From Bacteroidota bacterium (lineage in GTDB: Bacteria > Bacteroidota > Ignavibacteria > UBA10030 > UBA8401), in assembly GCA_008933835.1 (NCBI GenBank), contig WBUG01000008.1, forward strand, positions 1 to 64,000: DNA of 64,000 nucleotides. The letters are read 5' to 3'. The translations under genes were made by a program, and so were the position numbers. Below, piece after piece: positions 4,426 to 18,657 of this stretch; positions within the stretch are counted from its first letter, which is position 1; each line of letters opens with the position of its first letter. The notes beneath the pieces were generated by a model. That model saw only the letters and a program-made list of their open reading frames with translations. It searched no databases and had not been told where the DNA came from.

Positions 4426-4453
4426 TTGACTTCAGTACCGAAAATCGTATCTT
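4426..4453 (+). promoter_or_regulatory. Promoter for the ilv operon leader
   Basis: TTGACT (4426-4431), 16-bp spacer, TATCTTG (4448-4454). The same TATCTTG element precedes rpmH at 61820. A start near 4460 would give about 38 nt of leader before the small peptide gene at 4498. It is divergent from a minus-strand -10-like element (4413-4408) for mnmE. Assigned by pattern only. Confidence 0.6.
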
Positions 4454-4497
4454 GAAGATGTGTAACACGCTGCACCGTTCACTGTCCGCTCAAAAGA

Positions 4498-4647
4498 ATG
4501 TACGAGAACACACGACAGACTCGAATCACCCCGCGGCGCTCCGGCGTCCGTGTGATTCCTGTACGCGCGTCTCTCCTTCCGTTCGTCGGTATTACCATTC
4601 TTCTGGGGCTTACGCTCGCGATCCTTCTGCCGATTCTACTCGGCTGA
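4498..4647 (+). CDS. Putative Leu/Ile-rich leader peptide of the ilv operon (49 aa)
   Basis: This 49-codon reading frame begins MYENTRQTRITPRR and ends in a hydrophobic run with 15 Leu/Ile/Val among the last 24 residues (10 Leu, 4 Ile, 1 Val). Codon choice is striking. Four of six Ile codons are ATT, and Leu uses four CTT and one CTA, while the neighbouring ilvB uses ATC and CTC/CTG almost exclusively. Placement fits a translated attenuator leader like those of enteric ilv operons: downstream of a promoter, upstream of acetolactate synthase, followed by competing hairpins. The alternative is a small single-pass membrane protein with an arginine-rich cytoplasmic N-terminus. No strong ribosome site precedes it. 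I do not recognise a homologue. Confidence 0.6.
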   Translation: MYENTRQTRITPRRSGVRVIPVRASLLPFVGITILLGLTLAILLPILLG

Positions 4648-4656
4648 GCGAACGCA

Positions 4657-4754
4657 GAGGTTACCCCAACGAACCCTTCCCACATCGACGTCATCCGCAG
4701 TACGTGAGAATCCAGGAATCAGGGAGTAACCTCCGGGCGAGGATACTGTTCCTC
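4657..4754 (+). promoter_or_regulatory. Possible attenuator: mutually exclusive hairpins between leader peptide and ilvB
   Basis: GAGGTTAC (4657-4664) can pair with GTAACCTC (4726-4733). The downstream arm overlaps CCTC, which can instead pair with GAGG at 4739-4742. That GAGG is also the 5' arm of GAGGA (4739-4743)/TCCTC (4750-4754), followed by a T-rich stretch to 4767. These pairings cannot all form together, as expected of an attenuator, but the last hairpin is weak for an intrinsic terminator. No tRNA or other gene is seen in 4454-4777. Confidence 0.45.
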
Positions 4755-4777
4755 ATTCATTCATTCTCAGGTACGCC

Positions 4778-6526
4778 ATGACACACTCCTCCTCCCACCA
4801 ACGCCTCATGACCGGGGCCGAGATCTTCGTCCGTTCGCTGGTCGAAGAGAAGGTCGACGTCGTCTTCGGATATCCCGGCGGCGCCGTCATCGGCATCTAC
4901 GACGCGCTGCACGACATCTCGGACATCAAGCACATCCTGACGCGTCACGAACAGGGGGCCGTGCATGCCGCCGAAGGGTACTCGAAAGCGAGCGGCCGTC
5001 CGGGCGTGGCGCTGGTGACCTCGGGTCCGGGTGCGACGAACACCGTCACCGGCATCGCGGACGCCTACATGGACTCCATCCCCATCGTGGTCTTCACCGG
5101 CCAGGTGGCGCTGAAGCTCATCGGCAACGACGCGTTCCAGGAGGCGGACATCGTCGGGATCACGCGCCCCATCACCAAGCACAACTACCTGGTGCGCGAT
5201 GTGAACGAACTCGCCGCGACCATCAAGGAGGCCTTCTACGTCGCCACCACCGGGCGGCCGGGTCCCGTGCTCGTGGACCTGCCGAAGGACGTCATGGCGT
5301 CCAAAGCGGTCTTCTCGTACCCGAAGAGCGTGAAGCTCCGTTCCTACCAGCCGCACACCGAAGGACATCAGAAGCAGCTCAGCAAGGCGGCCGAACTCAT
5401 CGCGAAGGCGAAGCGGCCGGTGCTGTACGTCGGCGGCGGCACCATCCTCTCCGGCGCTTCTGAGGAACTGACGGCGTTCGCGCGGGCGACCGGCATCCCG
5501 GTCACCACCACGCTGCACGGGCTCGGCGCATTCCCGGAATCGGACGAACTCTCGCTGGGGATGCTCGGCATGCACGGCACGTGGTACTCCAACACCGCGG
5601 TGCACTACAGCGACCTGCTCATCGCCGTCGGCGCGCGCTTCGACGACCGCGTCACGGGGCGCACGGACGCGTTCGCGCCGGAGGCGAAGAAGATCCACAT
5701 CGACATCGACCCCTCCAACATCAGCAAGAACGTGAAGGTCGACGTTCCCATCGTCGGCGACGTGAAGACGGTGCTGAAGCAGCTCACGCCGATGGTGAAG
5801 CCGCTCGACACGAAGGACTGGGTGCGCACCATCCGCGCGTGGAAGGAGGAGCATCCGCTGCGCTACCGCAACGGGAAGGAGGTCCGGATGCAGCACGTGA
5901 TCCAGACGCTCTCCGGCCTGACGAAGGGGAACGCGGTGATGGTGAGCGACGTGGGACAGCACCAGATGTGGATGGCGCAGTTCTTCAACTACATGCTGCC
6001 GCGGACGCACCTGACCTCCGGCGGTCTCGGCACGATGGGCTTCTCGCTGCCGGCGGCGATGGGGGCGGCGTTCGCGCGGCGGGACATCCCGGTCATCTCC
6101 GTGAGCGGGGACGGCGGGTTCCAGATGAACATCCAGGAGCTGGCTACCATCCGCGAGCACAGCGTGCCGGTGAAGATCATCATCCTCAACAACGGCTACC
6201 TCGGCATGGTGCGGCAATGGCAGCAGCTCTTCTGGCGGAAGCGGTACTCGCACGTGGAGATGTTCGGACCGGACTTCGTGAAGGTGGCCGAGGCGTACGG
6301 CATCCCGGGGTTCCGCGCCACGCAGACCGCCGAGGTGGAGGAGACGCTCCGGCGCCTGCTCGACACGGAGGGACCCGCGCTGGCGGAGTTCCGCGTGATG
6401 AAGGAGGACAACGTCTACCCGATGATACCGGCGGGACAGACGTACAACGAGATCATGGACGTACCGGAGGCGACGGAGGAGGAGCAGGGGGAACGACTCG
6501 AACTGGTCACCATCGCAAAGGGTTGA
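4778..6526 (+). CDS. ilvB: Acetolactate synthase, large catalytic subunit
   Basis: This thiamine-diphosphate enzyme condenses two pyruvates to acetolactate, or pyruvate with 2-oxobutyrate, as the first common step to valine, leucine and isoleucine. The 582-residue length is usual. Visible features are the activating glutamate Glu58 in RHEQGAVHAAEGY, the FAD-binding middle domain, and the C-terminal ThDP/metal motif beginning GDGGFQMN and ending in the conserved asparagines of ILNNGYLGM. It heads a tightly packed operon: the regulatory subunit starts 1 nt after its stop. The putative leader peptide and hairpins upstream suggest regulation by branched-chain amino-acid supply. Confidence 0.97.
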   Translation: MTHSSSHQRLMTGAEIFVRSLVEEKVDVVFGYPGGAVIGIYDALHDISDIKHILTRHEQGAVHAAEGYSKASGRPGVALVTSGPGATNTVTGIADAYMDSIPIVVFTGQVALKLIGNDAFQEADIVGITRPITKHNYLVRDVNELAATIKEAFYVATTGRPGPVLVDLPKDVMASKAVFSYPKSVKLRSYQPHTEGHQKQLSKAAELIAKAKRPVLYVGGGTILSGASEELTAFARATGIPVTTTLHGLGAFPESDELSLGMLGMHGTWYSNTAVHYSDLLIAVGARFDDRVTGRTDAFAPEAKKIHIDIDPSNISKNVKVDVPIVGDVKTVLKQLTPMVKPLDTKDWVRTIRAWKEEHPLRYRNGKEVRMQHVIQTLSGLTKGNAVMVSDVGQHQMWMAQFFNYMLPRTHLTSGGLGTMGFSLPAAMGAAFARRDIPVISVSGDGGFQMNIQELATIREHSVPVKIIILNNGYLGMVRQWQQLFWRKRYSHVEMFGPDFVKVAEAYGIPGFRATQTAEVEETLRRLLDTEGPALAEFRVMKEDNVYPMIPAGQTYNEIMDVPEATEEEQGERLELVTIAKG

Positions 6527-6527
6527 T

Positions 6528-7052
6528 ATGACCGCCGCAGAACAGGAACAGGACCCGCAGGTCCACAAGCACACCATCTCCGTGCTGCTGGAGAACAAAT
6601 TCGGCGCGCTGAACCGCGTGGCCGGGATGTTCTCCGCCAAGGGATACAACCTCGAGTCCATCACCGTCGGTCCGACGGAGGACGAGAGCGTCTCACGCAT
6701 GACCATCGTCACCACGGGGGACGACGCCATCATCGAGCAGATCATCAAGCAGCTCAACAAGCTCATCGACACGCTCAAGGTGGTGGACCTGACGTACGAG
6801 AGCTTCATGGAGCGGGAGCTGGCGCTCATCAAGGTCTCGACGAGCGCCGACACGCGCTCGGAGATCATGCAGATCGCCGAGATCTTCCGCGCGAAGATCG
6901 TGGACATCAGCCACAAGACGATGACGGTGGAGGCGACCGGGAGCGGGCAGAAGGTGGACGCCATCATCAAGATGCTCAAGCCGTTCCACATCAAGGAGCT
7001 GGCGCGCACCGGACGCGTGGCGCTGAAACGCGAGTTCGTGGGGGACGTGTGA
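6528..7052 (+). CDS. ilvN: Acetolactate synthase, small regulatory subunit
   Basis: The 174-residue regulatory partner of IlvB confers feedback inhibition, usually by valine. An ACT domain occupies about residues 15-90 (HTISVLLENKFGALNRVAGM, NLESITVGPTED), followed by the C-terminal acetolactate-synthase small-subunit domain with the FRAKIVDIS segment. Its ATG follows the ilvB stop by one base, and its stop overlaps the GTG start of gltB, indicating translational coupling along the operon. Confidence 0.96.
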   Translation: MTAAEQEQDPQVHKHTISVLLENKFGALNRVAGMFSAKGYNLESITVGPTEDESVSRMTIVTTGDDAIIEQIIKQLNKLIDTLKVVDLTYESFMERELALIKVSTSADTRSEIMQIAEIFRAKIVDISHKTMTVEATGSGQKVDAIIKMLKPFHIKELARTGRVALKREFVGDV

Positions 7053-10000
7053 CGGACGGCGCGCAGCGGCGGCGTTTCCCGCTCTACGACCCGGGCTTCG
7101 AGCACGACGCGTGCGGCATGGGCTTCGTGGCCGCCATCGACGGCACGCGGAGCCGGCGCGTCCTTTCGCTGGCCCTGAAAGGGGTGTGCAGCGTGAGCCA
7201 CCGCGGGGCGGTGGACGCCGACGAGCAGACGGGGGACGGCGCCGGCATCCTGACGCAGCTTCCGCACGCGATGCTGAAGAAGGCGGTGCGGGGACTCTCG
7301 GCGATGCTCGCGTCCGACGACGAGCTCGGCGCCGGCGTCTTCTTCCTGCCGAAGGAGAGCGCGCGGTTCCAGCGCTGCCGCGAACTGATCGAATCCGTCG
7401 TGCGGAGCCGGGGCGTGCGCATCCTCGCGTGGCGGACGGTGCCGACCGATCCGTACTTCCTCGGCGAGAAGGCGGCGGCCACGCAGCCCAATCTGCAGCA
7501 GCTGCTCACCGCGCGCCCGGCCGCCATGTCCGCCGACGCGTACGAACGGACCCTCTATATCATCCGCAAGGAGATCGAACAGCGGGCGGGGGAGGAGGGA
7601 CTGGAGCTGTACGCCGCCTCGTTCTCCTCCCGCACCATCGTCTATAAAGGACTCGTCACGCCCGCCGCGCTGGAGAAGTTCTTCCTCGACCTGCAGGACC
7701 CCGAGTACGCCACCGCCATCGCGGTGTTCCACCAGCGCTTCAGCACGAACACCTTCCCGAAATGGGAACTGGCGCATCCGTTCCGCATGCTGGCGCACAA
7801 CGGCGAGATCAACACCATCCAGGGGAACCGGAACTGGACCCGCGCCCGCGAAGCGGAGCTGCGCTCCGACGTGTGGGGCGACGACATCCGCTTCATCACG
7901 CCCATCGTGCGGCCGGGCGGCAGCGACTCCGCCCATCTCGACAACGCGCTGGAGGCTCTGACGATGTCCGGCCGCAGCGTGCTGCACTCCATGCTGATGC
8001 TCGTCCCCGAAGCGTGGGCGTCGTCCTACCGGGTGGAGCCGTACGTGCGGGGATTCTTCGAGTACCATGAGTGCTTCAGCGAACCGTGGGACGGACCGGC
8101 GGCGCTCGTCTTCACCGACGGACGCACGGTGGCCGCGTCGCTCGACCGGAACGGACTGCGTCCGGCCCGTTACGCGGTGACGGAGGACGGTCTGGTGATC
8201 CTCTCGTCCGAAGCGGGAGCGGTGGAGATCGCGGACGCGTCGGTGGTCCGGAAGGGGAAGCTGGGACCGGGGCAGATGATCGCCGTCGACACGGCGGCGA
8301 AGTCGCTCGTGCGGGACTACGACATCAAGAAGGGGCTGTCGCTGCAGCGGCCGTACGGACAGTGGGTGAAGGAGCATCTCTACCGGCTGAGCGAGCATGT
8401 GACCTCGACCGAACGGTCGGCACCCGCGTACGGAACGGAGGAACTGCTCCGGCTGCAGGTGTGCAACGGATACAGCGCGGAGGAACTGTCGCTCATCTTC
8501 GCTCCGATGGCGGAGGAGGGGAAGGAGCCGGTCGGGTCGATGGGGGACGACGCCGCCATCGCGGTGCTCTCCCGCGAACCGAAACTGCTGCCGTCGTACT
8601 TCCGGCAGCAGTTCGCGCAGGTGACGAACCCGCCCATCGATCCCATCCGCGAGCGGTCGGTGATGTCCCTGACCGGCAAGCTGGGTCACCGCCGCAACTG
8701 GTTCGGCGAGACCCCCGAGCATGCGAAACTGGTGCAGATCTCCTCGCCGTTCCTCTTCGACAACGAACTGGCGGCGCTCACCGCCATCGACGATCCGGCG
8801 TTCCGCAGCGCGACGCTCTCCGTGCTCTTCCCCGCGGCGGAAGGGACCGCCGGGGCCGAGCGGCGCCTGGAGGCGTTGTGCGGCGAGGCCGAGCGCGCGG
8901 CGGACGAAGGGAAGTTCCTCATCGTCCTCTCGGACCGCGGAACGGACCGCGACCGCGCGCCGCTGCCGATGCTGCTGGCGGTCGGCGCGGTGCACAACCA
9001 TCTCATCCGCGCCCGCAAGCGGTTGAAGCTGAGCGTGGTGACCGAGACCGCCGAGGCGCGCGACGTGCACCACATGGCGACGCTCATCGGCTACGGCGTG
9101 AACGCGGTGAACCCGTACCTCGCCCTGCAGACCGTCCGCCGCATGACGGAGGCGAAAGGGGAGAGCGAGGCGGCGGTGGAGCGGGCGTTCCGCAACTACC
9201 GTAGCGCCGTCGAGGCGGGCATCCTCAAGACGATGGCCAAGATGGGCATCGCGCTGGCGGGAAGCTACCGCGGCGCGCAGATCTTCGAGGCGCTCGGCCT
9301 GAACGCCGCCGTGGTGGAGAAGTACTTCACCGGTACGCCGACCCGCATCGGCGGACTGGGGCTGCACGACATCCTCGCCGAAACGCTGGAGCGCCACCGG
9401 CGCGCGTTCGACGCCGCGAACGGCGCGCTGCCGGAGCGCGGTGAGTACAAGTTCAAGAAGAACGGCGAGACGCACGCCTGGTCCCCCGACGCGCTGCGCG
9501 CCATGCAGCAGTTCCGCAAGGGGGCCTCGCGCGAGACGTACTCCCATCTCGCCGCGGCGCTGGACCGGCACGAACCGGTGACGCTGAAGGACCTGATGCG
9601 CTTCCGGCCGGACCGCGCCCCGGTGCCGCTGGACGAGGTGGAACCGGCGGAGGAGATCATGAAGCGCTTCACCACCGCCGCGATGTCGCTCGGCGCGCTG
9701 TCGCCCGAGACGCACGAGGTCATCGCCGTGGCGATGAACCGCATCGGCGGAAAGAGCAACAGCGGCGAGGGAGGGGAGGACCCGGTGCGGTTCCGCCTCC
9801 GTCCCGACGGCGATTCGGCGAACAGCGCCATCAAGCAGATCGCCTCCGCGCGGTTCGGCGTGACGGCGGAGTACCTCGCCAGCGCGAAGGAGCTCGAGAT
9901 CAAGATGGCGCAGGGGGCCAAGCCGGGCGAGGGGGGCCAGCTGCCGGCGCACAAGGTGTCGCCGCACATCGCGCGGCTGCGCAAGTCGATGCCCGGCATC

Positions 10001-11587
10001 CAGCTCATCTCGCCGCCGCCGCATCACGACATCTATTCCATCGAGGACCTGGCGCAGCTCATCTACGACCTGAAGCAGGTGAATCCCCGCGCGAAGATCT
10101 GCGTGAAGCTGGTGAGCGAGGCGGGAGTGGGGACCATCGCCGCCGGTGTGGCGAAGGCGGGGGCGGACATCATCCTCATCTCCGGACACGAAGGAGGGAC
10201 CGGCGCATCGCCGTGGAGCTCCATCAAGAACGCCGGCAGCTGCTGGGAGCTCGGCGTGGCGGAAGCGCAGCAGGTGCTGCAGCTGAACGGACTCCGTTCA
10301 CGCGTGACGCTGCGGACCGACGGCGGGTTCAAGACCGGACGCGACGTCCTCACCGGCGCGATGCTCGGGGCGGAGGAGTTCAACTTCGGCACGGCGGCGC
10401 TCGTCGCGGTCGGATGCAAGTACGTGCGGCAGTGCCATCTCAATACCTGTCCCGTCGGCATCGCCACGCAGGACGAAGCGCTGCGGCGGAAGTTCGACGG
10501 CACGCCCGAACAGCTCACCGCCTACCTCCGCGGCGTGGCGGAGGACGTGCGCGAACAGCTCGCCTCGCTCGGATACACGTCGCTCTCCGACGTCATCGGC
10601 CGGACGTCGCTGCTCGAGCAGCGGAGCGTGGAGGGACATCCGAAGGCGAACACGGTGGACCTCTCCGCCCTCATCGCGCCGCCGGACACGCGCGACCAGC
10701 GGCAGCACCGCATCGACCAGCGGGGCGAGCGCGCGGCGAAACCGCTGGACGACACCATCCTCGCCGATGCGGCGGACGCCGTGCGCGCGCGGGTGCCGGT
10801 GCGGCGGTCGTACCGCGTCCGCAACACGCACCGCTCGGTCGGCACGAAGCTCTCCGGACAGATCGCCTACCTGCACGGCGATGCGGGCCTGCCCGACGGG
10901 ACCATCGACCTGCGGTTCACCGGCAGCGCCGGACAGAGCTTCGGGGCGTTCCTGGTGAACGGTGTCCGCCTCACGCTCACCGGCGAGGCGAACGACTACG
11001 TGGGGAAGGGGATGGGGGGCGGCGAGATCGTGATCCTCCCCGGCGCCCGAAAGCGGGAGGCCGCGCTCAACATCATCGCCGGCAACACGGTGCTGTACGG
11101 CGCCACCGGCGGACGGACGTTCATCAACGGACGGGCGGGGGAACGCTTCGCCGTCCGGAACAGCGGCGCGCTCGCCGTCGTGGAGGGGATCGGCGACCAC
11201 GGCTGCGAGTACATGACGAACGGCACCGTGGTGGTGCTCGGCACCATCGGAAAGAACTTCGGCGCCGGCATGACCGGCGGCACCGCGTACCTGTTCGACG
11301 CGGACGGCAACGCGAAGGAGCGGGTGAACAAACAGCTCGTGACGCTCCACCGGCTGCACGACGAACAGGACGAGAAGTTCCTCCAGTCGGTCATCTTCCA
11401 GCATCTGGAGCTGACCGACAGCGCGCGGGCGGACGAGCTGCTGAAGGGATGGAAGGATTTCCGGTACAACGTCTGGAAGGTGGTCCCCACCGCCATGCTG
11501 CAGCGTCCGAAGGAGACCAACGACGCGCTCGACGCAGCGAAGGAGGATGAACCGGGCGACGATACGAACACACGAAAGGAACCATGA
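7049..11587 (+). CDS. gltB: Glutamate synthase, large subunit
   Basis: Glutamate synthase makes two glutamates from glutamine and 2-oxoglutarate. The 1512-residue protein has the class-II amidotransferase domain with Cys22 (EHDACGMGF), expected to become the N-terminal nucleophile after removal of a short propeptide. The central and FMN-binding domains follow (SGEGGED, HEGGTGASPWSSIKNAG). The 3Fe-4S cysteines lie in CKYVRQCHLNTCPVGIA, and the C-terminal GxGxG beta-helix domain is complete. The GTG start overlaps ilvN by 4 nt. No small subunit gltD is nearby, so the electron donor (NADPH via a distant GltD, or ferredoxin) cannot be told. Its place in the ilv operon would supply the amino donor for branched-chain transamination. 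Confidence 0.96.
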   Translation: MTDGAQRRRFPLYDPGFEHDACGMGFVAAIDGTRSRRVLSLALKGVCSVSHRGAVDADEQTGDGAGILTQLPHAMLKKAVRGLSAMLASDDELGAGVFFLPKESARFQRCRELIESVVRSRGVRILAWRTVPTDPYFLGEKAAATQPNLQQLLTARPAAMSADAYERTLYIIRKEIEQRAGEEGLELYAASFSSRTIVYKGLVTPAALEKFFLDLQDPEYATAIAVFHQRFSTNTFPKWELAHPFRMLAHNGEINTIQGNRNWTRAREAELRSDVWGDDIRFITPIVRPGGSDSAHLDNALEALTMSGRSVLHSMLMLVPEAWASSYRVEPYVRGFFEYHECFSEPWDGPAALVFTDGRTVAASLDRNGLRPARYAVTEDGLVILSSEAGAVEIADASVVRKGKLGPGQMIAVDTAAKSLVRDYDIKKGLSLQRPYGQWVKEHLYRLSEHVTSTERSAPAYGTEELLRLQVCNGYSAEELSLIFAPMAEEGKEPVGSMGDDAAIAVLSREPKLLPSYFRQQFAQVTNPPIDPIRERSVMSLTGKLGHRRNWFGETPEHAKLVQISSPFLFDNELAALTAIDDPAFRSATLSVLFPAAEGTAGAERRLEALCGEAERAADEGKFLIVLSDRGTDRDRAPLPMLLAVGAVHNHLIRARKRLKLSVVTETAEARDVHHMATLIGYGVNAVNPYLALQTVRRMTEAKGESEAAVERAFRNYRSAVEAGILKTMAKMGIALAGSYRGAQIFEALGLNAAVVEKYFTGTPTRIGGLGLHDILAETLERHRRAFDAANGALPERGEYKFKKNGETHAWSPDALRAMQQFRKGASRETYSHLAAALDRHEPVTLKDLMRFRPDRAPVPLDEVEPAEEIMKRFTTAAMSLGALSPETHEVIAVAMNRIGGKSNSGEGGEDPVRFRLRPDGDSANSAIKQIASARFGVTAEYLASAKELEIKMAQGAKPGEGGQLPAHKVSPHIARLRKSMPGIQLISPPPHHDIYSIEDLAQLIYDLKQVNPRAKICVKLVSEAGVGTIAAGVAKAGADIILISGHEGGTGASPWSSIKNAGSCWELGVAEAQQVLQLNGLRSRVTLRTDGGFKTGRDVLTGAMLGAEEFNFGTAALVAVGCKYVRQCHLNTCPVGIATQDEALRRKFDGTPEQLTAYLRGVAEDVREQLASLGYTSLSDVIGRTSLLEQRSVEGHPKANTVDLSALIAPPDTRDQRQHRIDQRGERAAKPLDDTILADAADAVRARVPVRRSYRVRNTHRSVGTKLSGQIAYLHGDAGLPDGTIDLRFTGSAGQSFGAFLVNGVRLTLTGEANDYVGKGMGGGEIVILPGARKREAALNIIAGNTVLYGATGGRTFINGRAGERFAVRNSGALAVVEGIGDHGCEYMTNGTVVVLGTIGKNFGAGMTGGTAYLFDADGNAKERVNKQLVTLHRLHDEQDEKFLQSVIFQHLELTDSARADELLKGWKDFRYNVWKVVPTAMLQRPKETNDALDAAKEDEPGDDTNTRKEP

Positions 11588-12012
11588 TGAGAACGTTCTT
11601 CCTGTCCTGTTTTTTCCTTCTCCTCACCGGCACGGGCGCGGCGCAGACGCCGATGACCGTCCGCATCGACGGATTGCGGAACACCGACGGCCAGGTGATG
11701 GCGTTCCTCTTCGACAATGCGGACGACTTCCCGACCAAGCGCGATCGCGCGTTCCGTTCGGCGAAGACGGCTGTGAGCGGAACCTCCATGACGCTGCGGT
11801 TCGACGACGTCCCCGCCGGCACGTACGGCGTGGCGGTCTACCACGACGAGAACGCGAACGACAAGATGGACCGGAGCTGGTACGGTATGCCGAAGGAGGG
11901 GTACGGCGCTTCCAACGACGCCACCGGCACGTTCGGTCCCCCGAAGTTCAAGGATGCGCAGTTCCCCTTCCGGAACGCGCAGGACACGGTCAGGATCATC
12001 ATCCACTATTAA
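11584..12012 (+). CDS. DUF2141 family secreted protein
   Basis: A 142-residue protein with a signal peptide (about residues 1-20, hydrophobic core FLSCFFLLLTGTGAA, likely cut after AAQ). A small beta-rich DUF2141-type domain follows, recognisable from GQVMAFLFDNADDF and AVYHDENANDKMD. The Asp/Asn-rich loop could bind metal, but that is inference. Family function is unknown. It overlaps the gltB stop by 4 nt (ATGA) and is followed closely by ilvC, so an exported protein is translationally coupled inside a cytoplasmic biosynthesis operon, which is odd. Confidence 0.8.
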   Translation: MMRTFFLSCFFLLLTGTGAAQTPMTVRIDGLRNTDGQVMAFLFDNADDFPTKRDRAFRSAKTAVSGTSMTLRFDDVPAGTYGVAVYHDENANDKMDRSWYGMPKEGYGASNDATGTFGPPKFKDAQFPFRNAQDTVRIIIHY

Positions 12013-12034
12013 CCATCACGCCCGGAGAACACCC

Positions 12035-13093
12035 ATGGCTCAGATCAATTTCGGCGGCACGGTCGAAGAGGTCGTCACCCGCGAAGAATATCCCCTCGAC
12101 AAAGCGAAGGCCTTCCTGAAGAACGAAACGGTGGCCATCATCGGCTACGGTCCGCAGGGGTACGGACAGTCCCTCAACATGCGCGACAACGGCATCAACG
12201 TCATCGTCGGGCAGCGCAAGGGGGGCAAGGGATGGGACGACGCGGTGCGGGACGGATGGGTGGAGGGGAAGAACCTGTTCTCGGACATCGAAGAGGCGGT
12301 GCGGAAGGGGACCATCGTCCAGTACCTGCTCTCCGACGCCGGCCAGAAGCAGCAGTGGAGCACGGTGAAGCGGAACCTGCGGGCGGGACAGGCGCTCTAC
12401 TTCTCGCACGGATTCTCCGTGGTGTTCAAGGAGCAGACCGGCGTCGTTCCTCCGGCCGACGTTGACGTCATCCTCTGCGCGCCGAAGGGGAGCGGACGGA
12501 CGGTGCGGTCGAACTACCTCGAGGGGAGCGGAATCAACGCGAGCTTCGCGGTGTTCCAGGACGCCACCGGAAAGGCGCGGGAGCGCGCCGTCGCGTGCGG
12601 CATCGCCATCGGGTCCGGCTACCTCTTCCCGACGACGTTCGAGAAGGAGGTGCTGAGCGACCTCACCGGCGAGCGCGGCGTACTGATGGGGGCCATCGCG
12701 GGACTGATGAAGGCGCAGTACGACGTGCTGCGCTCCATGGGGCATTCGCCGAGCGAGGCGTTCAACGAGACGGTGGAGGAGGCGACGCAGAGCCTGTATC
12801 CCCTCGTCGGGAGGCACGGCATGGACTGGATGTTCGGCGCCTGCTCCGTCACCGCGCAGCGCGGCGCGCTGGACTGGGCGAAGAAGTTCGAGGCGGCGAA
12901 CCGTCCCTTGTTCGAGCTGCTCTACCGGGACGTGCAGTACGGCGTGGAGACGAAGCGCGTGCTCGATTCCACCAGCGCCGCGGACTACCGCGACACGCTG
13001 CAGAAGGAGCTCGACGAGATCCGGAACTCCGAAATGTGGCAGGCGGGAGCGGCGGTGCGCGGGCTCCGTCCGGAGAACTGGGGCAAGAAGTGA
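12035..13093 (+). CDS. ilvC: Ketol-acid reductoisomerase
   Basis: IlvC converts acetolactate or acetohydroxybutyrate to the dihydroxy acid using Mg2+ and NAD(P)H. The 352-residue product has the nucleotide-binding motif GYGPQGYGQSLN near residue 35 and the metal-binding C-terminal domain (NETVEEATQSLYP). It is longer than the common 330-residue form and begins MAQINFGGTVEEVVTREE, resembling the variant found in Bacteroidota. The ATG at 12035 was chosen because upstream codons are not conserved and GGAG lies about 10 nt before it. Confidence 0.96.
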   Translation: MAQINFGGTVEEVVTREEYPLDKAKAFLKNETVAIIGYGPQGYGQSLNMRDNGINVIVGQRKGGKGWDDAVRDGWVEGKNLFSDIEEAVRKGTIVQYLLSDAGQKQQWSTVKRNLRAGQALYFSHGFSVVFKEQTGVVPPADVDVILCAPKGSGRTVRSNYLEGSGINASFAVFQDATGKARERAVACGIAIGSGYLFPTTFEKEVLSDLTGERGVLMGAIAGLMKAQYDVLRSMGHSPSEAFNETVEEATQSLYPLVGRHGMDWMFGACSVTAQRGALDWAKKFEAANRPLFELLYRDVQYGVETKRVLDSTSAADYRDTLQKELDEIRNSEMWQAGAAVRGLRPENWGKK

Positions 13094-13122
13094 CGACGGC
13101 GGTTCAATAACCAACCACGGAC

Positions 13123-14724
13123 ATGTCCACGACCATCCGCATCTACGACACCACGCTCCGCGACGGCACGCAGGGGGAGGAGGTCTCCTTCTCCGCCGAG
13201 GACAAGGTGAAGATCGCCCGGCGCCTCGACGCGTTCGGCATCGACTACATCGAAGGGGGCTGGCCCGGTTCGAATCCGAAGGACATGGAGTTCTTCGAGA
13301 AGATCCGCGCCGTGCCGCTGACGCACGCGAAGGTGGCGGCGTTCGGCAGCACGCGCCGCGCGAAGAATCCGGTGGAGGAGGACGCGAACATCCGCGCCCT
13401 GCTCGCCGCCGGCACGCCCGTGGTGACCATCTTCGGCAAGACGTGGCTGCTGCATGTGAAGGAGGCGCTGCAGATCACCGAGGAGGAGAACCTGGAGCTC
13501 ATCGCCGACTCCGTCGCCTACCTGAAGAAGAACGGCAAGGAAGTGGTGTACGACGCGGAGCATTTCTTCGACGGCCACAGGTCCGACGCCGGGTACGCGA
13601 TGCGGACGCTGGAGGCGGCGCAGGAGGCCGGGGCGGACGTCATCGTCCTGTGCGACACCAACGGCGGCACGATGCCATGGGAGGTGGAGGCAGCGGTGCG
13701 CGGTGTCATCGCCCGTCTCCGGGTGCCGGTGGGCATCCATACGCACAACGACTGCGAGCTCGGCGCGGCCAACACGCTGGCGGCCGTACGGGCCGGCGCG
13801 GTGCACGTGCAGGGGACGATGAACGGGTTCGGCGAGCGGTGCGGCAACGCCAACCTCTGCTCCATCATCCCCACGCTGCAGCTCAAGATGGGGTACGACA
13901 TCGCCGGCGACCGGCTGCGGTCCCTCACCGACCTCTCCCGCACCGTGAGCGAGCTGGCGAACCTGAAGCACCGCAAGAACCTCCCCTTCGTGGGGGAGAG
14001 CGCGTTCGCCCACAAGGGGGGCGTGCACGTGAGCGCGGTGATGAAGACGCCGGTGACGTACGAGCACATCCCGCCCGAGAGCGTCGGCAACGCCCGCCGC
14101 GTGCTGGTGTCCGACCTCTCCGGCAAGAGCAACGTCCTCTACAAAGCGACCGAACTCGGCCTCACCCTCGACGAGCGCTCTCCCGCCGCCCAGAAGGTGG
14201 TGGAGGAGATCAAGGAGATGGAGCACTACGGCTACCGGTTCGAGGACGCCGAAGGCTCCTTCGAACTGCTCATCAAGAAGCACACCGGCGAACTGACGAA
14301 ACTGTTCGAGCTCGAGCGGTTCAAGATCAGCATCCATAAGGACTCGCACGACGCCGAAGCGCGGAGCGAAGCGCTCATCAAGGTGCGCGTGGGGGACGAG
14401 ACGGAGATCACGGCGGCGGAGGGGAACGGTCCCGTCAACGCCATGGACACGGCGCTGCGCAAGGCGCTGGAGCGGTTCTACCCGCAGCTGCGCGACATCC
14501 AGCTGACCGACTACAAGGTGCGCGTGCTCGACTCGCAGAACGCGACCGCCGCGAAAGTGCGCGTCCTCATCGAGACGAAGAACGGTCACTCGTCGTGGAA
14601 CACGGTCGGCGTCTCGTCGGACGTCGTCGAAGCGAGCTGGAAGGCGCTGGTGGACAGCGTCACGTACCATCTGTTGAAGCACACCCAACCATCACTCAAC
14701 CGTAAAGGCACCGCTACCGTATGA
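13123..14724 (+). CDS. cimA: (R)-citramalate synthase, CimA family
   Basis: CimA condenses acetyl-CoA with pyruvate to citramalate, giving 2-oxobutyrate for isoleucine without threonine deaminase. The 533 residues show the HMGL-like TIM barrel with [16 protein letters not shown] at the N-terminus, the metal-binding [12 protein letters not shown] segment and [13 protein letters not shown], then the C-terminal LeuA-type dimerisation/regulatory domain. DGTQGEE, rather than the DGEQSPG of LeuA, marks the CimA-type clade. It lies between ilvC and aroF, and its stop overlaps the aroF start by 4 nt. Confidence 0.93.
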
Positions 14725-15734
14725 TCATCGTTCTGAAACCCGCCGCCACCAAGGACCAGTACCAGCACATCATCGACCGCGTGCAGGAGTACGGCTTCAA
14801 ACCGCATCCCATCGTGGGAGAGGAGCGCACCGTCATCGCCTGCATCGGCGACGAACGGGACAAGGCGCAGCTCCAGCAATTGGAATCGCTCGACTACGTC
14901 GAGAGCGTGATGCCCATCCTGAAGCCGTACAAGCTCGCCAGCAAGGAATCGAAGCCCCGCACCGTCGTGAAGGTGGGAGGGGTGGAGATCGGGGGCTCGG
15001 GCTTCGTGGTGATGGCGGGCCCGTGCTCCGTCGAGACGCGGGAGCAGATCCTGCTCAGCGCGCGGCAGGTGAAGCAGGCCGGCGCCCACATCCTGCGCGG
15101 CGGTGCGTTCAAGCCGCGCACCTCGCCGTACTCGTTCCAGGGACTGGAAGAGGAGGGGCTGAAGTACATGGCGGAGGCGCGCGACGAGACCGGACTGCCG
15201 TTCGTCACCGAGGTCATCCAGCCGGGCGACGTGGCGCTCATCGAGCGGTACGCGGACATGTTCCAGATCGGCGCGCGCAACATGCAGAACTTCGCGCTGC
15301 TGAAGGAGGTGGGGCGCGCGAAGAAGCCGGTGCTCCTCAAGCGCGGCATGTCCAGCACGTACAAGGAGCTGCTGATGTCCGCCGAGTACATCATGTCGCA
15401 GGGGAACTACGCCGTGGTGCTGTGCGAGCGGGGCATCCGCACGTTCGAGGACTACACGCGGAACACGTTCGACCTCGCGGCGGTGCCGGCGCTGAAGGAG
15501 CTCTCGCACCTTCCGGTGATCGTGGACCCGAGCCACGGCACCGGCGTGCGCAGCCTCATCCCGCCGATGGCGAAGGCGGCCGTCCCGTCCGGGGCGGACG
15601 GCCTCATCATCGAGGTGCATCCGAACCCCGAGAAGGCCTTCTCCGACGGCGCGCAGTCGCTCACGCCGGAGCAGTTCGGCGGACTGATGGCGGACCTCCG
15701 CCGCTACGCCCCGCTGGAGAACCGAACGCTGTAA
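14721..15734 (+). CDS. aroF: 3-deoxy-7-phosphoheptulonate (DAHP) synthase, AroF type
   Basis: It catalyses the first step of the shikimate pathway, phosphoenolpyruvate plus erythrose-4-phosphate to DAHP. At 337 residues it is the I-beta type with an N-terminal ferredoxin-like domain (about residues 1-70), which carries feedback control in the Thermotoga enzyme. The barrel shows [41 protein letters not shown] and DPSHGTG. Its ATG overlaps the cimA stop, so an aromatic-pathway entry enzyme is coupled to branched-chain genes. No other aromatic gene is in the window. Confidence 0.95.
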
Positions 15735-15761
15735 GGACACGAACCCGACACCGAGACGACC

Positions 15762-17318
15762 ATGAACGACCGAGTGTACATCTTCGACACCACGCTGCGC
15801 GACGGGGAGCAGTCCCCGGGCTGCAGCATGAACTTCAACGAGAAGATCCGCATGGCGCGCCAGCTGGAACGGCTCCGGGTGGACGTCATCGAGGCGGGGT
15901 TCCCCATCGCCAGTGAGGGGGACTTCGAATCGGTGCGCGAGATCGCGCGGCAGGTGCGCTCGTGCACCATCGCGGGGCTCAGCCGCGCGAACAAGGGGGA
16001 CATCGACCGCGCGTGGGAGGCGCTGAAGCACGCCGCGAAGCCGCGCATCCACACCTTCATCGCGACGTCGGACATCCACCTGAAGTACAAGCTGAAGAAG
16101 TCGCGCGAGGAGGTGCTCGACGCCGCCGTCGCCGCCGTGCGCCTGGCGAAGTCGTACTGCGAGGACGTGGAGTTCTCGTGCGAGGACGCCTCCCGCAGCG
16201 ACATCGACTACCTCTGTCAGGTGGTCGAGGCGGTCATCGCCGAGGGGGCGACCGTCATCAACATCCCGGACACGGTCGGGTACGCCATCCCGGACGATTA
16301 CGGCACCATCATGCGCTCCCTCGTGGAGCGGGTCCCGAACATCGGCACGGTCGTCCTGAGCGCGCACTGCCACAACGACCTCGGCATGGCGGTGGCCAAC
16401 TCGCTGGCCGCGGTGATGAACGGCGCGCGGCAGATCGAGTGCACGGTGAACGGCATCGGCGAGCGGGCCGGCAACGCGTCCCTCGAGGAGATCGCGATGG
16501 CCGTCCGCACGCGCGGCGAGGCGCTCAAGGTCCGCACGAACATCGACACGGAGGAGATCTACCGCTCCAGCAAGCTGCTCGTCTCGCTCACCGGCATGCA
16601 CATCCAGCGCAACAAGGCGGTGGTGGGGGACAACGCGTTCGCGCACGAGGCGGGCATCCATCAGGACGGGATGCTGAAGAACTCCATCACCTACGAGATC
16701 ATGACGCCGCAGAGCGTCGGCATCAAGCACAGCACGCTCGTGCTCGGCAAGCACAGCGGACGGCACGCCCTGAAGCAGCGCTACCAGGAGCTCGGCTACA
16801 ACCTGTCGGCGGAGGAGCTGGACAAGGCGTACGCCGTCTTCACGAAGGTCGCCGACGAGAAGAAGCAGGTGTTCGACGACGACCTCGTCGCCATCCTGCA
16901 GGACGAACTTTCCAACCTTGATGAGACGTACACGCTCTCCACCTTCCAGGTCACCAGCGGGCTCAACCTGGTGCCGACGGCGACGGTCGGGCTGAAGAAG
17001 GGGGAGGAGTCGTTCCAGGACTCCGCCACCGGCGACGGTCCGGTGGACGCGGCGTACCGCGCCATCGAGCGCATCACCGGCATCGGCGTGGAGCTGCTCG
17101 ACTACTCCATCAAGTCGGTCTCCTGGGGACGCGACGCCATCGGCGAGGTCTTCGTGAAGATCGCCATCGACGGCTACGTCTTCAACGGCCGCTCCGCCAG
17201 CACGGACGTCATCACCGGCAGCGTGAAGGCGTACCTGAACGCCATCAACCACGCCGTCAGCGCGCGGTACCGCAAGGACCGCGACCCGTCCGTCCGTCAG
17301 GAGGCGCAGGCGGTCTGA
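15762..17318 (+). CDS. leuA: 2-isopropylmalate synthase
   Basis: LeuA makes 2-isopropylmalate from 2-oxoisovalerate and acetyl-CoA, the committed step to leucine. The 518-residue length is normal. It has [17 protein letters not shown] at the N-terminus, metal ligands in [26 protein letters not shown], and the C-terminal allosteric domain where leucine binds. It begins 27 nt after aroF and precedes leuC by about 40 nt, so it is part of the same operon. Confidence 0.96.
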
Positions 17319-17358
17319 TCACAACGGCATCCACACGAACGAACAGGGCGACACCACC

Positions 17359-18657
17359 ATGGGCATGACCATCACGGAAAAGATCCTCGCACGGCACTCC
17401 GGCAGAACGTCGGTCCGTCCCGGCGACAACGTCTGGGTCGACGTCGACGTACTGATGACGCACGACGTCTGCGGACCGGGCACCTTCGGCATCTTCAAGC
17501 GCGAGTTCGGCGCGGAGGCGAAGGTGTGGGACCGCGAAAAACTGGTGGTCATCCCGGACCACTACATCTTCACGAAGGACATGCACGCGAACCGCAACAT
17601 CCAGATCCTGCGCGACTTCGCGAAGGAGCAGGGACTGCCGCACTACTACGACGTCGGGACGGACCGCTACAAGGGGGTCTGCCACGTCGCGATGCCGGAG
17701 GAGGGTTTCACCCGTCCGGGCGAGGTGCTCTTCGGCACCGACTCGCACACCTGCACGGCCGGGGCGTTCGGCGAGTTCGCCACCGGCATCGGCAACACCG
17801 ATGCCGCGTTCATCCTCGGCACCGGCAAGCTGTGGGTGAAGGTCCCCGAGACGATGCAGTTCGTCTTCGAGGGGGAGATGCCGAAGTACCTGATGGCGAA
17901 GGACCTCATCCTGGCGGTCATCGGCCGCATCGGGGTGGACGGCGCCACGTACCGCGCGATGGACTTCGCCGGCTCCACCGTCGATGCGATGACGATGGAG
18001 GACCGGATGACCCTCTGCAACATGGTCATCGAGGCGGGGGGGAAGAACGGCGTCTGCACGCCGGACAGGACCACGACCGACTACGTGCGGGCGCGGACGG
18101 CGAAGGAGTTCGAATGCCACACGAACGACGGCGACGCACGGTACCACTCCGTGCACCGCTTCAACGTCGCGGAGATCGAGCCGACGGTGGCGAAGCCGCA
18201 TTCGCCCGACAACAAGGCGGCGGTGAGCGAGGTGGCGGGGACGCGGCTGGACCGCGCGTACATCGGCAGCTGCACCGGCGGAAAGGTGTCGGACTTCGTC
18301 GCGGCGGCGGAGGTGCTCTACGGCGAGAGGGTGCGCATCGACACGTTCATCGTGCCGGCCACCACGGACGTGGCGCGGGAGATCCGCACGCTGAAGGTGA
18401 AGGACAAGACCGTCATGCAGATCTTCGAAGAGGCGGGGTGCCGCATCGGCGAATCGTCCTGCGCGGCGTGCCTCGGCGGTCCGTCGGACACCTTCGGCCG
18501 TCTCAACGGCGCCGAGGTGTGCATCTCGTCCACCAACCGGAACTTCCCGGGACGGATGGGCTCCAAATCGTCGCAGGTGTACCTCGCATCGCCGTACACC
18601 GTCGCCGCATCGGCGGTGAAGGGGGTCATCACCAGTCCCCGCGAGTTCTTCGCGTAA
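17359..18657 (+). CDS. leuC: 3-isopropylmalate dehydratase, large subunit
   Basis: LeuC carries the 4Fe-4S cluster of the isomerase converting 2- to 3-isopropylmalate; it can also act on citramalate. The 432-residue length places it in the shorter LeuC group seen in archaea and many non-enteric bacteria. Cluster cysteines are visible in GSCTGGK and [10 protein letters not shown]; substrate-site motifs are VIPDHYIFT and [14 protein letters not shown]. It ends the first operon: a hairpin with a T-run follows directly. The partner leuD lies 0.5 kb away beyond panD. Confidence 0.95.

Follow-up and report, generated by a model that had tools for sequence, protein, structure and literature searches.

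Leader peptides ahead of branched-chain amino-acid (BCAA) genes have been described in enterics, Corynebacterium and other Actinobacteria, S. aureus and Listeria, and have been proposed for Leptospira (PMC10272879, PMC1262725, PMC5794164, PMC5864092, PMC1183508). CUA has been discussed as the best Leu control codon, together with the loss of sensitivity upon replacement of CUA by CUG in the Salmonella leu leader (PMC1183508). In open-access papers, to which our search was confined, we found no description of a BCAA leader for Ignavibacteriota, Balneolia or Rhodothermia. A preliminary description of the DNA studied here knew of no ilv leader in this group.

Here we analysed a 64,000-nt stretch of DNA from a Bacteroidota bacterium of the class Ignavibacteria (hereinafter the window), in which a short upstream ORF (uORF) precedes ilvB. 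Comparison with related loci indicates that this leader is very probably a ribosome-mediated attenuator, which would match the expression of a BCAA operon to how much charged Leu and Ile tRNA is available. The locus contains the following features:

4426..4453, + strand: sigma-70-type promoter, with −35 TTGACT, a 16-nt spacer and −10 TATCTT (1 found vs 0.2 expected)
4460..4475, + strand: imperfect dyad GTGTAAC-ACG-CTGCAC, close to where transcription should start and more distinct in relatives (GTGTAACCCAGTTGCAC)
4498..4647, + strand: leader peptide ORF (uORF) of 49 codons plus TGA; start, frame and stop position are kept in family f1
4573..4644, + strand: putative control region, the last 24 codons, 15 of them for Leu/Ile/Val, with ATT, CTT and CTA
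4604..4620, + strand: strand 1 (TGGGGCTTACGCTCGCG), inside the uORF, pairs with strand 2
4653..4667, + strand: strand 2, with its core GAGGTTACCCC at 4657-4667, 9 nt past the stop codon
4722..4733, + strand: strand 3 (GGGAGTAACCTC), partner of strand 2 in the proposed ON state
4739..4747, + strand: strand 4 (GAGGATACT), partner of strand 3 in the 3:4 hairpin; relatives have position-equivalent hairpins
4748..4768, + strand: pyrimidine-rich tail GTTCCTCATTCATTCATTCTC, a weak counterpart of the U-rich tract of relatives
4769..4780, + strand: AGG of the ilvB ribosome-binding region, and the ATG that starts ilvB (4778)
4778..18657, + strand: putatively regulated operon of ilvB, ilvN, gltB, a gene for a small protein, ilvC, cimA, DAHP synthase (aroF), leuA and a leuC-family gene, with gaps of ≤40 nt

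The promoter is divergent from mnmE, and its TTGAC...TATCTT elements are kept in 16 of 16 leaders of family f1, the family to which the window belongs. The dyad at 4460-4475 is well kept in close relatives as GTGTAAC-nnn-GTTGCAC and could be a 5' hairpin or an operator. As expected of an attenuator, the uORF is short and lies on the same strand as a biosynthetic operon, between its first gene and a promoter. The operon includes cimA, which encodes citramalate synthase, and we suggest that nine biosynthetic genes, including gltB and the DAHP synthase gene, answer to Leu/Ile supply. gltB, which encodes the glutamate synthase large subunit, lies inside the branched-chain operon (7049-11587 of the window), and a leader of the same kind stands directly ahead of gltB in another genome (G056, locus L193).

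The uORF encodes MYENTRQTRITPRRSGVRVIPVRASLLPFVGITILLGLTLAILLPILLG, and its coordinates, length and sequence are exactly those of the preliminary description. Leu, Ile and Val account for 15 of the 24 C-terminal residues, as had been counted before (binomial P = 2.5e-5, taking 0.22 as the LIV frequency across genes), while the maximum C-terminal count in the 38 genes of the window is 12. The median count in the last 24 residues of 74 leaders is also 15. Such a cluster of end-product codons in the uORF is expected of an attenuator.

The codons that the leader uses are unusual for this DNA. Specifically, its Ile codons are four ATT and two ATC, and its Leu codons are four CTT, three CTC, two CTG and one CTA, which agrees with the counts reported earlier. 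ATT makes up 4/6 of the leader's Ile codons vs 35/920 (3.8%) in the 38 window genes (Fisher P = 4e-5), and CTT/CTA make up 5/10 of its Leu codons vs 145/1666 for CTT/CTA/TTA/TTG in the same genes (Fisher P = 9e-4); part of this bias is general, since the GC3 of the leader's non-BCAA codons is also lowish (21/29). The adjacent ilvB has no ATT among its 36 Ile codons, and all 44 of its Leu codons are CTC or CTG, again as described before. The same preferences are found in the last 20 codons of the family-f1 leaders, where CTA accounts for 38/74 Leu codons (vs 12/643 in ilvB of the same loci) and ATT for 88/104 Ile codons (vs 283/688).

It had been proposed that rare codons for the regulated amino acids heighten the sensitivity of the leader to tRNA charging. 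The genome appears to have one copy of tRNA-Ile, with anticodon GAT, for both ATT and ATC, and one tRNA-Leu each with anticodons TAA, GAG, CAA and TAG, of which GAG serves CTT and CTC. Because ATT and ATC have a common tRNA, and CTT and CTC likewise, rare-tRNA sensitivity is possible for CTA only. The proposal is strengthened for Leu, where CTA is strongly enriched relative to ilvB in family f1; for ATT and CTT, an explanation by separate tRNAs is not supported. CTA may share tRNA-Leu(TAG) with CTG. tRNA-Leu(CAG) was not found among the 44 tRNAs of the draft assembly, and CTG nevertheless makes up 44% of Leu codons in the window genes; either the draft lacks this tRNA, or tRNA-Leu(TAG) decodes CTG. 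Slower decoding and a need for an unstructured region are other possible reasons for the use of ATT. The preference for CTA is known from the Salmonella leu leader (PMC1183508), and its presence in a distant phylum offers an independent test of codon-choice theory.

The peptide differs between families while its composition is kept. In the alignment of 74 leaders, a comparison that the preliminary description had called for, identity over the last 20 residues is 0.20-0.25 between families vs 0.20 from composition alone, and 65% of the residues stay Leu/Ile/Val. Within family f1, the C-terminal half follows the pattern G-I-x-I-I-L-G-x-x-x-x-I-L-x-L-x-I-x-G with variation. In a set of nine close relatives, codons 2-25 have a pN/pS of 0.74 and a pS of 0.45, codons 26-49 have a pN/pS of 0.26 and a pS of 0.33, and the pS of ilvB is 0.75. 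Judged from these values, the N-terminal half drifts almost freely, and the C-terminal half is held at both the amino-acid and the synonymous level; its low pS is as a constraint on codons or RNA would give. Conservation of the peptide through synonymous changes, which had been named as the mark of a real protein, is therefore seen in the C-terminal half of close relatives only; it does not extend between families, and synonymous sites are themselves held back in that half.

These data bear on two explanations in which the peptide itself would matter. The first, raised in the preliminary description, is that a small single-pass membrane protein happens to precede ilvB. The last 24 residues could span a membrane, and the C-terminal half is conserved in close relatives (amino-acid identity 0.84, pN/pS 0.26), but we consider this explanation very improbable: identity between families is at the level of composition, synonymous sites are constrained, there is no match to a Pfam family, lengths span 32 to about 99 residues, a segment of the uORF pairs with RNA beyond its stop, and the ORF heads ilv operons whichever gene is first. 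The second is that the peptide stalls the ribosome as a nascent chain, in a TnaC-like manner, rather than through codon starvation. Arrest of this kind, just as improbable in our assessment, would fit the C-terminal conservation in close relatives and the recurring G-x-x-I-x-L-G; it would not fit the loss of sequence between families, or the retention of Leu/Ile codons biased to certain synonymous codons, which arrest by peptide sequence does not need.

Alternating RNA helices, which the preliminary description had missed, make the case for an attenuator as predicted from the sequence. Strand 2 can pair either with strand 1 in the uORF or with strand 3 downstream, and strand 3 can alternatively pair with strand 4. 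The helices 1:2, 2:3 and 3:4 are mutually exclusive and are placed for a choice by ribosome position, as expected of an attenuator. The model below, in which transcription, translation, stalling, switching and the direction of the response are all inferred, follows from this arrangement. Transcription would start near 4460, and the ribosome would start at 4498. When Leu- or Ile-tRNA is short, the ribosome would stall on codons within 4573-4644 and cover strand 1, so that strand 2 (from 4653) would be free to pair with strand 3 (4722-4733), denying it to strand 4 (ON). When supply is good, the ribosome would reach the stop at 4647 and cover strand 2, or would leave and allow 1:2 to form; with strand 2 occupied, strand 3 would be free for strand 4 (4739-4747; OFF). 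In close relatives of the window, the OFF state would consist of a hairpin followed by a U-rich tract, causing premature termination. In other relatives, strand 3 would instead occupy the ribosome-binding site of the first gene and block its translation.

The 2:3 duplex of the window has a z of −3.3, compared with a median of about −4.6 for 45 leaders and about 0 after the stops of 38 ordinary window genes; a few ordinary genes reach a similar z, so the window by itself is not conclusive. The window's own 1:2 duplex does not stand out from shuffled sequences (z about −1). At the level of family f1, the 1:2 helix has 13 compensatory cells vs 8.3 in shuffles (7/500), and in Fodinibius (L049) strand 1 TTCTAACTTCTGGC forms 14 pairs with strand 2 GCCAGGGGTTAGAA.

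A ribosome at the stop codon would cover the start of strand 2, as ribosome footprints imply. When the strongest helix was sought 0 to 29 nt past the stop of 72 leaders, strand 2 was found to start 4-12 nt past the stop in 69 of them. Such spacing is required for an attenuator but not for a protein gene. In relatives, the 2:3 pair is CAGAGGTTACTCCC / GGGCGTAACCTCTG, and different clades keep the helix with unrelated sequence, namely CAGAGGTTAC/GTAACCTCTG, GGTCAATCCC/GGGATTGACC, TGGTCAGCCTG/CAGGCTGACCA and AGGTTATTCCC/GGGAATAACCT. Support for the pairing comes from this between-clade comparison, because 2:3 is nearly invariant within family f1 and shows almost no covariation there. Similarly, covariation gives no support for 1:2 and 2:3 within Balneolales, where the helices hardly vary, and the result is neutral in both groups. 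The 3:4 helix of Balneolales does covary (score 0.198 vs 0.152, 8/500).

Rhodothermales (L043, L154-L156, L163, L164) have a strong local hairpin at strand 3, CCGGGG-GATTGA-CCCCGG in L043/L154, with neither a U tract nor a start codon nearby; in L043 and L154-L156, strand 1 lies about 80-90 nt upstream of the stop. A motif TATATC, GTATCT or TGTATC occurs soon after strand 3 in 11/14 Balneolales, 6/13 members of f7/14/17 and 4/16 members of f1, and nowhere else. It lies, for example, in the 3:4 loop AAAAGTATATCTGC of L114 in Balneolales and after the model match of L189 in f7; in f1 it lies after strand 4. It is possibly a pause site, a protein site or an internal −10. Some f7 members have a possible internal promoter that overlaps strand 3 (TTGACC...TATCTG); as it is not general, this reading was rejected.

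The output of the switch differs between relatives. In genera g1, g3, g7 and g9 of the window's family, strand 3 can fold with the adjacent downstream strand 4, as in GCGTAACCTC-TGAACC-GAGGTTGTGT, and in most of them the 3:4 hairpin is followed by 5-8 T in 10 nt. In genus g2, many ilvD-first operons and Balneolales, the partner of strand 3 is the stretch around the ribosome-binding site and start codon, as in GCAACCTC with GAGGTTGC-AATG; the pairs GTTCGCCT with AGGCGAAC-GATG and GTTCACCT with AGGTGAAC-TATG are compensatory variants. An output element, either an intrinsic terminator or a sequestered ribosome-binding site, is expected of an attenuator; it is clear in relatives and weak in the window itself, whose tail is pyrimidine-rich rather than U-rich. 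The window's 3:4 hairpin, AGTAaCCTC-CGGGC-GAGGaTACT, has 8 pairs, one A-A mismatch and −7.1 kcal/mol.

To model the decision stepwise, RNA before strand 2 was removed for the stalled state, and RNA was masked to 12 nt past the stop for the state with the ribosome at the stop. In the stalled state, 2:3 forms in 9/9 f1 leaders tested (0.77-0.89), with 0.89 for the strand 3 core of the window. In the stop state, 3:4 forms in 7/9 leaders (0.60-0.98) and partially in L027 (0.38). The 3:4 hairpin of the window, the weakest of the nine, is absent (0.00) in this fold masked to +12, where strand 2 remains partly paired. When folded at equilibrium through the start codon, L001, L002, L005, L007, L014 and L196 show no switch, and L027 shows a marginal one. 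Stepwise folding, itself a modelling choice, fits a transcriptional decision.

For the window, termination is somewhat favoured over translation block, because strand 4 lies where a terminator would be, even with a weak hairpin and a weak tail. The other version, in which the same attenuator acts mainly on ilvB translation by masking the AGG and ATG (4769-4780) with strand 3 or with the entire fold, is a lesser but real possibility. AGGTAC (4769-4774) is a potential partner of strand 3; in genus g2, families f5/f6 and Balneolales, the start region pairs with strand 3 with z down to −4.4; and a standard terminator search of the window leader gave no match and no U run. Yet in the window itself such pairing does not rise above shuffled sequence (z −0.2), and the nearest relatives have the longer 3:4 hairpin followed by the T-rich stretch.

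The leader is widespread in front of ilv operons. In 16 of the 16 readable members of the window's family, ilvB is preceded by a uORF of 48-52 codons that ends about 120-195 nt before the ilvB match. All 18 readable ilvD-first operons of the class have the leader before ilvD, 69-138 nt ahead of the called start of the ilvD ORF; the ilvD-region set also includes one genome of a different context without the leader and one contig that is cut. Altogether, all 34 ilv operons of the class that could be read have the leader ahead of ilvB or ilvD. A covariance model (R1) built from the 16 family-f1 members matches a single place in the window's genome, 4618-4735 (E 1.4e-14), and gives 21 matches in 245 class genomes. 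Several of these matches are some 1.9 kb away from ilvB, which places them upstream of ilvD, and the uORF and helix at those places are read ahead of ilvD and once ahead of gltB. The idea that other families of the order have no leader was rejected on the basis of this search, as their operons begin with ilvD and the leader precedes ilvD. In L200, the model match misses the actual leader, located further downstream in that locus.

Although built from f1 only, model R1 also finds most Balneolales leaders (E 1.4e-4 to 0.05), and the same layout is carried by Balneolales (Balneolia), Rhodothermales (Rhodothermia) and other families. Outside f1, uORFs were selected by their Leu/Ile/Val content, so that content is not independent evidence there; helix and spacing are. 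Elsewhere in Bacteroidota, short ORFs with Ile/Val runs (e.g. ...VLAAIIIVVVIIIPATFGGGV) precede ilvE or ilvD in L268 (663-762) and L264 (598-697), both on the reverse strand, and in L280 (1794-1856). They resemble another branched-chain leader design and have no clear strand 2/3 layout.

T-boxes control other ilv genes. If the ORF were incidental, ilvB could instead be preceded by a metabolite riboswitch or a T-box; such an arrangement would have a precedent in the ppGpp riboswitches that control ilv genes in some Firmicutes (PMC10272879), but its probability here is close to nil. Specifically, the Rfam covariance models (T-box, riboswitches, curated leaders) give no match to the window leader at the gathering score and no relevant weak match, and the alignments have no conserved unpaired core, with loops that vary in length and sequence.

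Taken with the attenuator reading, the distribution suggests that a single deeply conserved leader-peptide switch probably exists across Ignavibacteria, Balneolia and Rhodothermia, perhaps more widely. It would stay at the head of the operon (ilvB, ilvD, once gltB) and read Leu and Ile, via ATT and CTA/CTT, far more than Val, while its output would have changed between termination and block of the ribosome-binding site with uORF, spacing and strands 1-3 kept. The leader looks like a standard device of the whole class, and its variants allow a change of output to be traced while the sensor stays. Gene callers tend to overlook or misname such leader ORFs.

The leader peptides of enteric ilvGMEDA, ilvBN and leu are shorter than that of the window. 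The enteric leaders work by ribosome stalling on Leu/Ile/Val codons, with CUA as a control codon in the leu leader (PMC1183508), but their strands and sequences are unrelated, and relatives of the window leader also use translation block. The Corynebacterium ilvB-II motif, or ilvBNC attenuator (PMC10272879, PMC11857589), likewise has a BCAA-rich uORF before ilvB and mutually exclusive hairpins, one per genome; unlike the window leader, its uORF has 15-17 codons rather than 49 and its terminator a clear U tract, and its sequence is unrelated. The ilvB-OMG and ilvB (Leptospira) motifs (PMC10272879) also place a BCAA-rich uORF in an RNA motif before ilvB, with attenuation proposed, but threonine is enriched in them too and they belong to other lineages; the window leader has no Rfam match, though Rfam may not include each motif. 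The leucine-rich attenuator peptide of S. aureus ilvD (PMC5794164) resembles the leaders described here in preceding an ilvD-first ilv-leu operon, in its Ile and Leu codons and in its terminator and antiterminator, and differs in that the peptide has 26 aa, the host belongs to Firmicutes and CodY also acts. The actinobacterial leuA LEU element (PMC1262725) shares a uORF with Leu codons and pairing to the Shine-Dalgarno box, but it has a pseudoknot, codon mutations are without effect, and its authors judged classical attenuation unlikely. Thus, the mechanism proposed for the window is of a known kind, the leader family is apparently new, and the change of output between lineages, if confirmed, would be new as well.
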